The notes under the pieces were generated by a model, which did no database searches, was not told the DNA's origin, and saw only the letters and a list, made by a program, of their open reading frames with translations. Of a DNA stretch of 64,000 bases, positions 5,727 through 13,795 are shown in pieces. This DNA is from Myxococcota bacterium (GTDB taxonomy: Bacteria > Myxococcota_A > UBA9160 > SMWR01). The first letter of the stretch is position 1, and every line of letters starts with the position of its first letter. The stretch is taken from contig JBCCEW010000006.1 of assembly GCA_039030075.1 (NCBI GenBank), positions 62,001 through 126,000 on the forward strand. Reading direction: 5' to 3'. The position numbers and the translations under genes were made by a program.

Positions 5727-6302
5727 CTACGCTTTGGCCGCGTGTTCGGGGATCGGGCAGACCGCCCCTTCCGAGAAGCCCTGGGCGGACACGTCGAAGC
5801 CGCGGTTGAAGCGCGCGCGGAAGTTCTCCCAGGCGATCGCTGCCGTCAGCTCGACCCACTGCTCGTCGTCGAGGTGCTTGCGCAGCTCGGTCACCAGAGC
5901 GTCGCTCGGGTTCGCCGGCGTCTCGGTGAGTGCGACGGTGTAGGCGAGCACGGTCTTCTCGAGCGCGTCGAAGGCGTCGCTCTCCTCGAAGTCGTGAATC
6001 GCGAGGAGCTGCTCTTCGCTGAGGCCGTGTTCTCTGCCGACGGCAGAGCCGATGTCGATTCAGAACACGCAACCGATCATGGCCGCGGCCTTGACCCCGG
6101 CCAACGCCTTCAGCGCCGCTGGAACGCGCGAACCCTTCGCACTCGCGAGCTCGTAGAAGCCCGCGGCCCACATCACCGACTTGCTGAGGGCCATGATGCG
6201 TAGCGGGTCGGGCACCTGGCCGGCGCGCTGCTTCGCACCGCGGAACACCGCGCGCGTCAGGGCCGAGGCCTGGTCGTCTTGAATGCCCTCGATGCGAGCC
6301 AT
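5727..6302 (-). CDS. carboxymuconolactone decarboxylase (AhpD-like) family selenoprotein, Sec81
   Basis: Read through, the frame gives 191 residues. It starts MARIEGIQDDQ behind GGAGG and meets an in-frame TGA at codon 81 (bases 6062-6060). It then continues open for 110 codons with normal composition to the stop at 5727. The TGA lies exactly where the CMD/AhpD family has the second cysteine of its redox motif: IGCVF-[TGA]-IDIGSA, giving C78-x-x-U81. A perfect 7-bp hairpin begins 11 nt after the TGA (separate entry), and a selD gene lies 4 kb away. CMD/AhpD proteins are small helical oxidoreductases that use the CxxC pair in peroxide or thiol-disulfide chemistry. A standard gene caller would split or truncate this gene. 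The alternative is a nonsense-mutated pseudogene, which the hairpin and residue position argue against. Confidence 0.82.
6032..6048 (-). promoter_or_regulatory. bacterial SECIS element following the in-frame TGA
   Basis: On the minus strand, 11 nt after the TGA, the sequence CTCTGCC-GTC-GGCAGAG forms a perfect 7-bp stem with a GUC loop. Bacterial SECIS hairpins lie within the coding sequence just downstream of UGA and present a GU in the apical loop to SelB; here the GU is at +19/+20 after the UGA, close to its place in E. coli fdhF as I recall it. The element overlaps codons for residues after Sec81 without breaking the frame. Confidence 0.75.
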
Positions 6303-6325: not shown

Positions 6326-6751
6326 TCAGAGCGCGTCGGGTTCCGCCGAACCCGAACGCGACAGGAAACGATGCGTGGCGACCGCCGTCACGACGGCTGG
6401 GAGGTAGACGCCCGGCAGGTCGAGGAGCCAGTGGTCGTGTCCGACCGCACCGCGCGCCGTGTCGTAGACATGCAGCAGAGCGTGGGCGACCAGGAAGAGG
6501 GCCGACACCGCCACCAGGGGCGGCCGCCAGGCCGGGACGCGGGCGGCCCACACGAGCGCAATACCGACGGTCAGGAAGGCACAGCCGATGTCGCGGACGA
6601 AGTGGGCGTTGAACGGTCCGGTGTCGGGAACGCCGGCCGGAATCTCGGTGTACCAATGCTGTGGCCCCGCCAGCATCCAGAGCGCGTTCAACAGGCTGAC
6701 GATGCCGATGAACCCGAGAACCCAGGCCCAGGTGTCTCGCGGCGCGTCCAT
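6326..6751 (-). CDS. four-helix membrane protein of unknown function
   Basis: The 141-residue protein has four predicted membrane helices (WAWVLGFIGIVSLLNALWML, DIGCAFLTVGIALVWAA, PPLVAVSALFLVAHALLHVY, GVYLPAVVTAVATHRFL). The loop after helix 1 contains GPQHWYTEIPAGVPDTGPFN and the second helix is preceded by HFVRD, a pattern I have seen in small uncharacterised inner-membrane proteins but cannot name. It ends 23 bp before the selenoprotein start on the same strand, so the two may share a transcript. The ATG at 6751 gives the natural N-terminus before helix 1. Confidence 0.7.
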   Translation of the reverse strand: MDAPRDTWAWVLGFIGIVSLLNALWMLAGPQHWYTEIPAGVPDTGPFNAHFVRDIGCAFLTVGIALVWAARVPAWRPPLVAVSALFLVAHALLHVYDTARGAVGHDHWLLDLPGVYLPAVVTAVATHRFLSRSGSAEPDAL

Positions 6752-6882
6752 GCGACGAAGGTAGGAGAGGGGACGTCGGCCCGTCAGGACCACTTCGCCG
6801 CGCGGATCCGGGTCCAGTGGCTCCGCCGTGGGGGCACGGCGTTTCGTGCGATACTCGGCGTCCCCACGCGAGGAGAGCGCCG

Positions 6883-10430: not shown

Positions 10431-12629
10431 ATGGCCGCGACTTCCGCAGACCTGGTCCTGGTGGGCGCGGGTCACGCCCACGTCCAGGTGCTGCGGCGCT
10501 GGATGATGGCGCCCGTGGCCGGGGTCCGGCTGTCCCTCGTCGTAGATCAGCCGGTCGCGGTGTACTCGGGCATGGTCCCCGGCTTCGTCGCGGGGGACTA
10601 CCGCGCGGCCGACCTGGAGATCGACGCGGGCCCCCTCGCGAGGCGTGCCGGCGCACGCGTCATTCTCGCCGCAGCGCGCTCGATCGACGCCGCAGCGAAG
10701 CGCATCGAACTCGAGGGACGACCGCCCGTGAGCTACGACGTCGCGAGTCTGGACGTAGGGGCCACCGTGCGCGGGCTGGACCTGCCCGGCGTGCGCGAGC
10801 ACGCGCTCGCTACCCGTCCGATCGCGACCTTCGTCCGCGAACTCGACGCGCGTGTCGCCGCGCTCTCGGAGCAGCCGCGCATCCACGTCGTGGGCGGTGG
10901 GGCCGCCGGCGTCGAACTCGCCCTCACGCTGCAGGCGCGCTTGCAGTCGCGCGGGCCGAAGCTCTCGTTGATCAGCGCCGGACCGCTGCTGGCGGGGACG
11001 TCACCGCGACTGCAGCGGCACGCGGCGGACCTGCTGCGCGAGCGGGGGATCGCCACGCGCGAGGGGCGGGTGGCGGCCGTTGGGCCGGGACGGATCGAGC
11101 TCACCGACGGCGAAGCGGTCGAGACCGACCTCATCGTCTGGGCGACGGGTGCGGCGCCGCTGTCGTTCCCCGACGGTCCCGGGCTTCCGAAGGATGAGGC
11201 GGGCTTCGTGCGCGTCACGCCCGAGCTCTCGGTCGAGGGCTTCCCGGAGCTCTTCGCCGCCGGCGACTGCGCTGCACTTCCCTTTGCGCCGTGGGTGCGG
11301 AAGGCGGGCGTCTATGCGGTGCGCGGAGGCCCCGTACTCGACGCGAACCTGCGCGCGCGGCTGCGCGGTGGTGCGCTGCAGCGCTATCGCCCCCAGCGCG
11401 ACTTCCTCGCGTTGCTCAATACCGGAAATCGCGAAGCGCTCGGCGCCAAATGGGGCTTCACGGCGCAGGGGGCGCGCGTCTGGCGGCTCAAGGACTGGAT
11501 CGATCGCCGCTTCATGGACCGTTTCCAGGTGCTCGACGCCCAGGGGCGGCCCCGTTCGTCGTTCCCGAGCGCCGAGTCCATGGGGATGGAAGAGATGGAA
11601 TGCGGCGGTTGCGCGGCGAAGGTGGGAGCGACCCCTCTCGCCGCTGCTTTGGCGCGTCTGCCGAAGGCACCCGAGGACCCGAGCGTTCGCCTGGGACTCG
11701 CCGAGCCCGATGACGCGGCCGCCTTCGAGCTCCCGCACGGCGACGTCGTGCTCGCCACCATCGACGCGTTCCGGGCCTTCAGCGACGACCCGTTCACGGT
11801 GGGGCGCGTGGCGGCGGTGAATGCCGTGAGTGACGTGCTCGCGAAGGGCGGTCAGCCCCGACACGCATTGGCGTTGGTGAACGTGCCCGAGAGCGATCCT
11901 GTCCGCGCCGAGGAGTTGCTCTTCCAGGTGCTCTCGGGCGTGCGCGCTGCACTGGACGCCGAAGGAATCACGCTGCTCGGAGGACACACCACGCAGGGGG
12001 AGGACCTCTACGTCGGCCTGTCGGTGACGGGGGTGCCCGGGGATCGGCTGCTGCCGGCGTCGGGTCTGCAGCCCGGGGATCGGCTGGTGCTGACGAAGCC
12101 CCTCGGTAGTGGGGTGCTGCTCGCTGCCGACATGCGGGGCGAGCTTCCGGGGCCACTGCTGGTGGCGCTACTCGCGGGTCTGTCCCGTTCGAACGCGGCC
12201 GCGGCCCGCATTGCGCTCGACATGGGGGCGCGGGCTTGCACCGACATCAGCGGCTTCGGATTGCTCGGACATCTTCGCGAGCTGTGCGAGGCGAGTGACG
12301 TCGCGGCCCGGGTCGCTGCGGCGGAGGTGCCGGGCTGGGACGGCGCGCGCGACCTGCTCGCGCGGGGCGTGCGCAGCACCTACCACGCCGAGAACGAACG
12401 CGCGCGGGCCGGCCTCGTGCCGACCGCAGATCCCGCACCCGTGGATCTCGCGCTGCTCTTCGATCCGCAGACCTCGGGCGGGCTGCTCTTCGGCGTCGCC
12501 GAGCCCGCGCTCGAGGGCGCGCTCCGCGCGCTGCACGCAGCGGGTGACGTGCACGCCGCGTGCATCGGGACCGTGCGCGCCGCGCAGGCCGATGGCATCC
12601 GCGTCGAGATCGCCGGCTCGGATTCTTGA
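10431..12629 (+). CDS. selD: FAD/NAD(P)-dependent oxidoreductase-selenophosphate synthetase (SelD) fusion
   Basis: The 732-residue protein has an N-terminal pyridine-nucleotide-disulfide oxidoreductase domain (about 1-375: LVLVGAGHAHVQVL, HVVGGGAAGVELALTL for NAD(P), FAAGDCAALPF for FAD) fused to SelD (about 385-732). The SelD part starts with ECGGCAAKVG, where the Cys and Lys match the catalytic Cys17/Lys20 of E. coli SelD. It continues with the ATP-binding DAFRAFSDDPFTVGRVAAVN and LGGHTTQGEDLYVG blocks and a C-terminal DPQTSGGLLFGV. SelD makes selenophosphate from selenide and ATP for tRNA-Sec; the oxidoreductase half may feed reduced selenium. The fusion is known in other bacteria. The catalytic position is encoded as Cys, not Sec. 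Confidence 0.93.
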   Translation: MAATSADLVLVGAGHAHVQVLRRWMMAPVAGVRLSLVVDQPVAVYSGMVPGFVAGDYRAADLEIDAGPLARRAGARVILAAARSIDAAAKRIELEGRPPVSYDVASLDVGATVRGLDLPGVREHALATRPIATFVRELDARVAALSEQPRIHVVGGGAAGVELALTLQARLQSRGPKLSLISAGPLLAGTSPRLQRHAADLLRERGIATREGRVAAVGPGRIELTDGEAVETDLIVWATGAAPLSFPDGPGLPKDEAGFVRVTPELSVEGFPELFAAGDCAALPFAPWVRKAGVYAVRGGPVLDANLRARLRGGALQRYRPQRDFLALLNTGNREALGAKWGFTAQGARVWRLKDWIDRRFMDRFQVLDAQGRPRSSFPSAESMGMEEMECGGCAAKVGATPLAAALARLPKAPEDPSVRLGLAEPDDAAAFELPHGDVVLATIDAFRAFSDDPFTVGRVAAVNAVSDVLAKGGQPRHALALVNVPESDPVRAEELLFQVLSGVRAALDAEGITLLGGHTTQGEDLYVGLSVTGVPGDRLLPASGLQPGDRLVLTKPLGSGVLLAADMRGELPGPLLVALLAGLSRSNAAAARIALDMGARACTDISGFGLLGHLRELCEASDVAARVAAAEVPGWDGARDLLARGVRSTYHAENERARAGLVPTADPAPVDLALLFDPQTSGGLLFGVAEPALEGALRALHAAGDVHAACIGTVRAAQADGIRVEIAGSDS

Positions 12630-12694: not shown

Positions 12695-13795
12695 GTGCCC
12701 AACGTCCGAATCGCCATCGTCGGGGTGGGCAACTGCGCCAGCTCGCTGGTTCAGGGAATCCGCTATTACCAGGACGCCGATCCGGCGACTGCAGTCGGTT
12801 TGATGCACTGGGAGATCGGGGGAATGCGGCCCCAGGATCTCGAAGTCGCGGCCGCCTTCGACGTCGACCTGCGCAAGGTCGGCAAGGATGTCGCCGAGGC
12901 GATCTTCGAGAAGCCCAACTGCACCCAGGTCTTCTGCGAGGGCGTCCCCAAGACCGGCGTGCGCGTCCGCATGGGGCGCGTGCTCGATGGGGTCGCCGAT
13001 CACTTCGAGGACCACGCCGACGACCGTCGTTTCCTGGTGTCGGACCAGGCCGAGGCGAGCCGCAGCGAGGTGGTCGAGGCGCTGCGCGACGCCCGTGTGG
13101 ACGTCCTGGTGAACTACCTCCCGGTCGGTTCCGAAGAGGCCGCGCGCTTCTACGCCGAGTGCGCGCTCGAGGCGCGCGTCGCGGTGGTCAACTGCATTCC
13201 CGTCTTTCTTGCCAGCGATCCCGAGTTCGCGAAGCGTTTCGAAGAGGCGGGCGTTCCGATCCTGGGTGACGACATCAAAGCCCAGCTCGGTGCGACCATC
13301 ACCCACCGCATGCTCACCGACCTCTTCGCGAAGCGCGGGGTGAAGCTCGATCGGACCTATCAGCTGAACACGGGCGGCAACACCGACTTCCTCAACATGC
13401 TGAACCGCGACCGCCTGGCGTCGAAGAAGATCTCGAAGACCGAAGCCGTGCAGTCGGTGGCGTCGGAACGCATCGAGGCCGACGACATCCACGTCGGGCC
13501 GAGCGACTACGTCGCATGGCAGAACGACAACAAGGTGTGCTTCCTGCGCATGGAGGGGCGGCTGTTCGGCGACGTGCCGATGCACCTCGAGCTGCGACTC
13601 TCGGTCGAGGACTCGCCGAACTCGGCGGGCGTGTCGATCGACGCGATCCGCTGCGCGAAGCTCGCCGCCGACCGCGGCCAGGGCGGGGTCGTCGAGGGGC
13701 CCTCGGCCTTCTTCATGAAGCACCCGCCGCGTCAGTGGAACGACGACGAAGCGCACCGCCGCACCGAGGCCTTCGTGCGCGGCGAGGACGACTAG
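12695..13795 (+). CDS. ino1: inositol-3-phosphate synthase
   Basis: The 366-residue product matches the short bacterial/archaeal myo-inositol-1-phosphate synthase type: NAD-binding AIVGVGNCASSLVQGI at the N-terminus, PKTGVRVRMGRVLDG, VVNCIPVFLASDPEF, GDDIKAQLGATITHR and QLNTGGNTDFLNML. The enzyme converts glucose 6-phosphate to inositol 3-phosphate. The start is GTG at 12695. It follows the selD fusion on the same strand, 65 bp apart, and its stop codon shares a CTAG with the convergent epimerase gene. Confidence 0.93.
   Translation: MPNVRIAIVGVGNCASSLVQGIRYYQDADPATAVGLMHWEIGGMRPQDLEVAAAFDVDLRKVGKDVAEAIFEKPNCTQVFCEGVPKTGVRVRMGRVLDGVADHFEDHADDRRFLVSDQAEASRSEVVEALRDARVDVLVNYLPVGSEEAARFYAECALEARVAVVNCIPVFLASDPEFAKRFEEAGVPILGDDIKAQLGATITHRMLTDLFAKRGVKLDRTYQLNTGGNTDFLNMLNRDRLASKKISKTEAVQSVASERIEADDIHVGPSDYVAWQNDNKVCFLRMEGRLFGDVPMHLELRLSVEDSPNSAGVSIDAIRCAKLAADRGQGGVVEGPSAFFMKHPPRQWNDDEAHRRTEAFVRGEDD

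Follow-up and report, generated by a model that had tools for sequence, protein, structure and literature searches.

An in-frame TGA in a CMD-fold gene of a Myxococcota bacterium is very likely read as selenocysteine

Introduction

Does an in-frame TGA in the middle of a bacterial gene mark a broken gene, or is the codon read as selenocysteine (Sec)? With standard gene calling, such TGA-interrupted genes end up split or discarded, and one of them lies on the minus strand of the 64,000-nucleotide stretch of Myxococcota DNA analysed here (hereafter, the window). A sequence-only reading had described it as a selenoprotein gene of the carboxymuconolactone decarboxylase (CMD)/AhpD family with a CxxU redox motif. 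CxxU AhpD-like or CMD selenoproteins have been reported from the Sargasso Sea survey (PMC1088965) and, as AhpD-like proteins, from the GOS survey (PMC2398784), and a CMD domain-containing selenoprotein is listed again in a 2026 review (PMC13188914). We conclude that Sec is very likely inserted at the apparent stop of the gene at 5727-6302, leaving the gene intact rather than broken, and put the probability that it codes for a full-length, Sec-containing CMD-fold protein at roughly 95%, judged from sequence comparison.

Results

A single TGA occupies the redox motif of a CMD gene

The gene and its signals comprise the following features:

5727-6302, minus strand: predicted selenoprotein gene of the CMD/AhpD fold, product of 191 residues (Sec at 81), assigned from the reading frame, Pfam, AlphaFold2 and Foldseek
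6302-6300 and 5729-5727, minus strand: start codon ATG, with GGAGG just 5' of it, and stop codon TAG
6060-6062, minus strand: in-frame TGA at codon 81, giving the second residue of CxxU (C78-V-F-U81), putative selenocysteine, shared at this column by all close relatives
6032-6048, minus strand: predicted bacterial SECIS hairpin, CTCTGCC-GTC-GGCAGAG, with a perfect 7-bp stem and the apical loop G-U-C

The 191-codon frame running from 6302 to 5727 holds this one in-frame TGA, with C78-V-F directly before it and 110 sense codons between it and the TAG; every detail of the interrupted frame described earlier was confirmed. Its product matches the Pfam CMD family PF02627 with 31.3 bits, above the gathering score of 23, in agreement with the CMD-type assignment, and the TGA takes the second position of the CxxC motif of the CMD/AhpD family. 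Past the TGA, residues D83, S86, T128, L140, E151, E159, N160, F165, N166, F176 and C182 are invariant in the family alignment. Internal TGAs were absent from the 11 neighbouring genes examined.

The TGA column is conserved across phyla

Within the order, 61 genomes yielded 14 sequences, that of the window included, with one TGA at the same column, and the TGA form is found in 22 of the 91 genomes of the class, in relatives 33-68% identical to the window protein. Altogether, more than 36 sequences from several phyla and largely independent assemblies have a TGA at this position. Named genomes with the same arrangement were Myxococcota or Deltaproteobacteria metagenome-assembled genomes (MAGs), Acidobacteriota, Actinomycetota (Acidimicrobiales), Chloroflexota (Dehalococcoidia) and Thermodesulfobacteriota, in a scan that overlaps the class set, so that some records are the same genomes.

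Cysteine at the TGA column was seen only in more distant proteins, namely those of Sphingobacterium and its relatives, of one gammaproteobacterium and in same-order CMD paralogues, with full-length identities that go no higher than about 35% and in most cases stay within about 33%. An alignment to homologues, suggested earlier as a check for Sec/Cys pairs at column 81, thus returned TGA in independent genomes and Cys in distant CMD proteins. No Cys version was found inside the Sec clade among the class genomes, the named genomes or in the tree. There, 35 of the 36 Sec rows cluster in a single block that contains no Cys form, and midpoint rooting means that the tree does not show the direction of Sec/Cys change. 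The remaining Sec row, L028 (33% identity), groups beside Cys forms and possibly represents a separate Cys/Sec switch.

Two members showed deviating features. The CMD selenoprotein at L028:1501-2025 (minus strand) has an 8-bp hairpin with its 3' arm shifted by 2 nt. In L097 (genome G066), the matched stretch was flagged with two TGAs; one is the CxxU TGA, followed by a hairpin like that of other members, and the second apparently lies at the tail end.

A covarying hairpin follows the TGA

The perfect 7-bp hairpin noticed by the sequence-only reading is present at 6048-6032, with its stem beginning 11 nt after the TGA. With generous settings (hairpin 7-17 nt from the TGA, loop of 3-8 nt), any perfect 7-bp hairpin follows only 12 of the 1105 TGA trinucleotides on both strands of the window. 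More telling than this chance estimate is that TGA, motif and hairpin return together in many relatives. An alignment of 26 sequences required no gaps from the TGA onward; in it, 91% of the cells of the 7-bp stem are paired and 14 cells carry compensatory changes (shuffled mean 3.1). The stem covariation score of 0.259, versus 0.092 for shuffled alignments, was reached in none of 500 shuffles, and all slid stem registers were clearly worse than the register 11 nt after the TGA. Compensated stems include the change of CTCTGCC/GGCAGAG to CTCGGCC/GGCCGAG (L055) and to TTCCGCC/AGCGGAA (L062). The innermost stem pair is open in 11 sequences, giving a 5-nt loop variant, and the first loop G is invariant (26/26).

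Published bSECIS rules specify an apical loop of 3-9 nt, an upper stem of 4-16 bp, a G as first or second loop nucleotide, a UGA-to-loop distance of 16-37 nt and a minimum free energy of at most -7.5 kcal/mol (PMC13188914). The window hairpin lies within all of these limits, with a 3-nt loop, a 7-bp stem, G first, 18 nt from UGA to loop and about -11 kcal/mol. Its folding energy is unexceptional against shuffles in this GC-rich DNA (z about -0.2), and the evidence for the hairpin is therefore conservation and covariation, not stability. The codons in the hairpin arms are rare in neighbouring genes, where TCT accounts for 5 of 187 Ser codons (2.7%) and AGA for 1 of 362 Arg codons (0.3%). Compared with its closest relative, the window gene differs at third positions in 7 of 35 codons just past the TGA and in 31 of 69 codons further on; third codon positions are unusually constrained just past the TGA. 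Judged by its sequence, the hairpin at 6032-6048 is under selection.

A covariance model built from the family's own SECIS set, used with the published rules in place of bSECISearch, likewise gave a positive result: in a whole-genome search, the sole site above noise was the hairpin at 6032-6048. This model was trained on its own family, the window sequence included, so it scores here by construction and has a narrow reach; it revealed no further selenoproteins across the genome. An Rfam scan of the window and the locus returned nothing relevant and was uninformative, as SECIS_1 matched no control genome either.

Several CxxU members depart from the shared hairpin register. The Acidimicrobiales relatives (L067-L069, L072, L073, L075-L077) and L070 have no hairpin there. 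L067 and L070 contain alternative hairpins near the same distance (GCUC..GAGC and CCGCUCU-GGUC-AGAGCGG, respectively), and their SECIS therefore differs. L063 and L064, from Geobacteraceae and Desulfobacterales MAGs, have the CxxU-column TGA and no clear hairpin in the shared register.

The genome encodes a complete Sec system

A genome search for selA, selB and selC found all three: selA (G000:C5, 517 bits), a full-length selB (G000:C3, 323 bits) and tRNA-Sec (G000:C16, 69.7 bits), which ARAGORN calls SeC with anticodon TCA. In addition, selD lies in the window itself, about 4 kb from the CMD/AhpD-fold gene:

10431-12629, plus strand: NAD(P)-disulfide oxidoreductase-SelD fusion (selenophosphate synthetase), matching TIGR03169 and TIGR00476

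The fusion scores 385.3 bits against TIGR03169 (cut-off 310) and 268.6 bits against TIGR00476 (cut-off 125), and it supplies the selenium donor for Sec synthesis; Ndh-SelD fusions have been described before (PMC2398784). selA is present in each of the 22 TGA-form genomes, a co-occurrence that is consistent with Sec coding rather than strong evidence for it, since selA is common in the class (84/91 genomes). Some fragmented relatives (G001, G007, G013) have selA and no selB match above the cut-off, a gap likely due to incomplete assembly. Together, TGA conservation, the covarying hairpin and the sel genes strongly support the CxxU selenoprotein reading, and each computational check suggested earlier gave a positive result.

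Directly downstream of selD, at 12695-13795 on the plus strand, lies a gene for an inositol-3-phosphate synthase, the product of which is most like the mycothiol-type INO1 model (466 bits, cut-off 638).

The clade extends a known kind of selenoprotein

We compared the window clade, by description only, with the AhpD-like 1 (COG2128) and AhpD-like 2 (pfam02627) groups of the Sargasso Sea and GOS surveys. All share the CMD/AhpD domain, Sec as the second residue of CxxU and a downstream bSECIS. The catalogued groups stem from marine metagenome surveys, whereas the window clade is seen in whole genomes, with hairpin covariation, Sec machinery and a DUF4345 neighbour; it could be the same group as one of them or a separate one. 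The best NCBIfam match is NF053654 (GroundWater_YciW, YciW-related (seleno)protein), the name of which allows for Sec. It covers positions 1-175 of 179 and scores 108.8 bits, below the cut-off of 310 bits, which no protein reached in any of the 91 class genomes. The match to TIGR01926 (peroxidase-related enzyme) is likewise below its cut-off (32.0 versus 81.8 bits).

From the earlier CxxU AhpD-like/CMD reports and the weak NF053654 match, we take the gene to be an addition to a known kind of CxxU selenoprotein, possibly as an unnamed orthologous group. The earlier reading was right that CxxU AhpD-like proteins were already known; the interest it assigned was too high for a kind catalogued since 2005. 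Less ordinary are the failure to find a Cys version in the clade, the score far below the NF053654 cut-off, the conserved tail Cys and the DUF4345 neighbour. Literature searches on selenoproteins in Myxococcota and on the debrominase Bmp8 yielded nothing useful.

An intact enzyme emerges once the TGA column, the covarying SECIS and the full Sec machinery are considered together, and selA in 84 of 91 genomes indicates widespread Sec use in a little-studied class. The clade offers a clean, apparently Sec-fixed AhpD-like group for testing Sec versus Cys in this fold, and its aligned SECIS set can be used to train SECIS predictors.

An AhpD fold without the canonical Glu/His relay

AlphaFold2 predicted a confident, all-helical model of the window protein (pLDDT 89.6), for which the best PDB matches in Foldseek have the AhpD fold, with TM-scores of 0.78 for Bmp8 and 0.83 for a Deinococcus alkyl hydroperoxide reductase AhpD. 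Bmp8 (PDB 6OHI) and the AhpD-type structures 6K40, 3C1L and 2PRR share the fold (TM 0.78-0.83) and the CxxC/U position; they differ in using Cys and are about 15-23% identical to the window protein.

Canonical AhpD enzymes have acid/base residues at Glu (first Cys -12) and His (second Cys +4). The window protein has A66 and G85 at these positions, which makes AhpD-like peroxidase chemistry uncertain, and the His at +4 occurs only in some relatives (for example, L025-L027). Of the features that define AhpD (CxxC/U, Glu and His), the protein thus has CxxU, with Glu and His replaced. The earlier AhpD/CMD-family label holds for fold, redox motif and PF02627 and fails for the Glu/His relay; 'AhpD' here denotes fold and redox motif, not proven activity. 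The invariant D83 could act as acid/base.

C182 lies on a poorly ordered C-terminal tail (pLDDT below 50) and could be a resolving thiol. It is kept in Myxococcota and Acidobacteriota members and most Chloroflexota members, and not in Acidimicrobiales. Some Cys-type relatives have it too, and so it is not Sec-specific.

Alternative readings of the codon and the reaction

A sequencing error, or a true nonsense mutation in a decaying gene, could in general account for such a TGA in any metagenome-assembled genome. The same-column TGA in 22 of 91 class genomes and in other phyla excludes it, and this account was already refuted by cross-genome conservation; with more than 36 such sequences, a conserved flanking protein and a covarying hairpin after the TGA, its probability is negligible. 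Hardly more credible is a UGA read by near-cognate readthrough or Trp reassignment, or a true stop with a downstream restart giving two polypeptides. A GTG at 5951 does open a 74-codon frame downstream of the TGA; however, the 35 codons between the two are conserved as protein in the family. The UGA also coincides exactly with the column of the catalytic Cys, the genome holds a complete Sec system, a covarying hairpin follows, and internal TGAs are lacking in the neighbouring genes, all of which speaks for Sec.

Given Sec, the product is, by its sequence, most likely a small thiol/selenol oxidoreductase, and peroxide or disulfide reductase chemistry is somewhat favoured. A selenoprotein with another reductive reaction, such as dehalogenation, is unlikely, though it would fit with Bmp8 as the best profile and fold match, the replaced Glu and His, and the failure to find a Cys version within the clade. 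Against it, the protein shares only about 23% identity with Bmp8, other AhpD-like proteins match the fold equally well, or better by TM-score, and halogen-related neighbours were not seen among the genes examined.

A candidate mechanism and a membrane neighbour

In the favoured reading, SelB and tRNA-Sec, recruited by the hairpin 11 nt downstream, decode UGA 81 as Sec, yielding a CxxU redox centre placed like the CxxC of AhpD. As an oxidoreductase, the protein would react with the oxidant first through Sec81. Cys78 would then convert the selenenyl intermediate into a Se-S bond, to be reduced again by the conserved tail Cys182 or an external thiol. The computational support for Sec coding is strong, whereas we infer the reaction, the substrate and the link to the following neighbour:

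6326-6793, minus strand: DUF4345-type small membrane protein gene (Pfam DUF4345), 23 nt upstream of the CMD gene and in the same direction

The window copy scores 26.3 bits, just under the cut-off of 26.5, and all 14 members match at E<=1. Like the window, about half of the close relatives have a DUF4345 gene immediately upstream, and such genes also adjoin several Cys-type CMD genes. This suggests that the DUF4345 and CMD proteins form a functional pair; the gene is a probable operon partner, and its membrane protein may tie the CMD selenoprotein to the membrane. A fold search of the DUF4345 protein against the PDB gave no significant match, kinship with DoxX is weak (1 of 14 members, at E = 0.025), and a literature search on a DoxX-CMD link returned nothing useful. 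It is a long shot that an orthologous CMD group with fixed Sec (no Cys form was found inside the clade across five phyla), a conserved third Cys in its flexible tail and a DUF4345 partner constitutes a membrane-linked selenol redox system with chemistry beyond the reach of Cys, such as quinone-linked oxidation of thiols or reductive dehalogenation.
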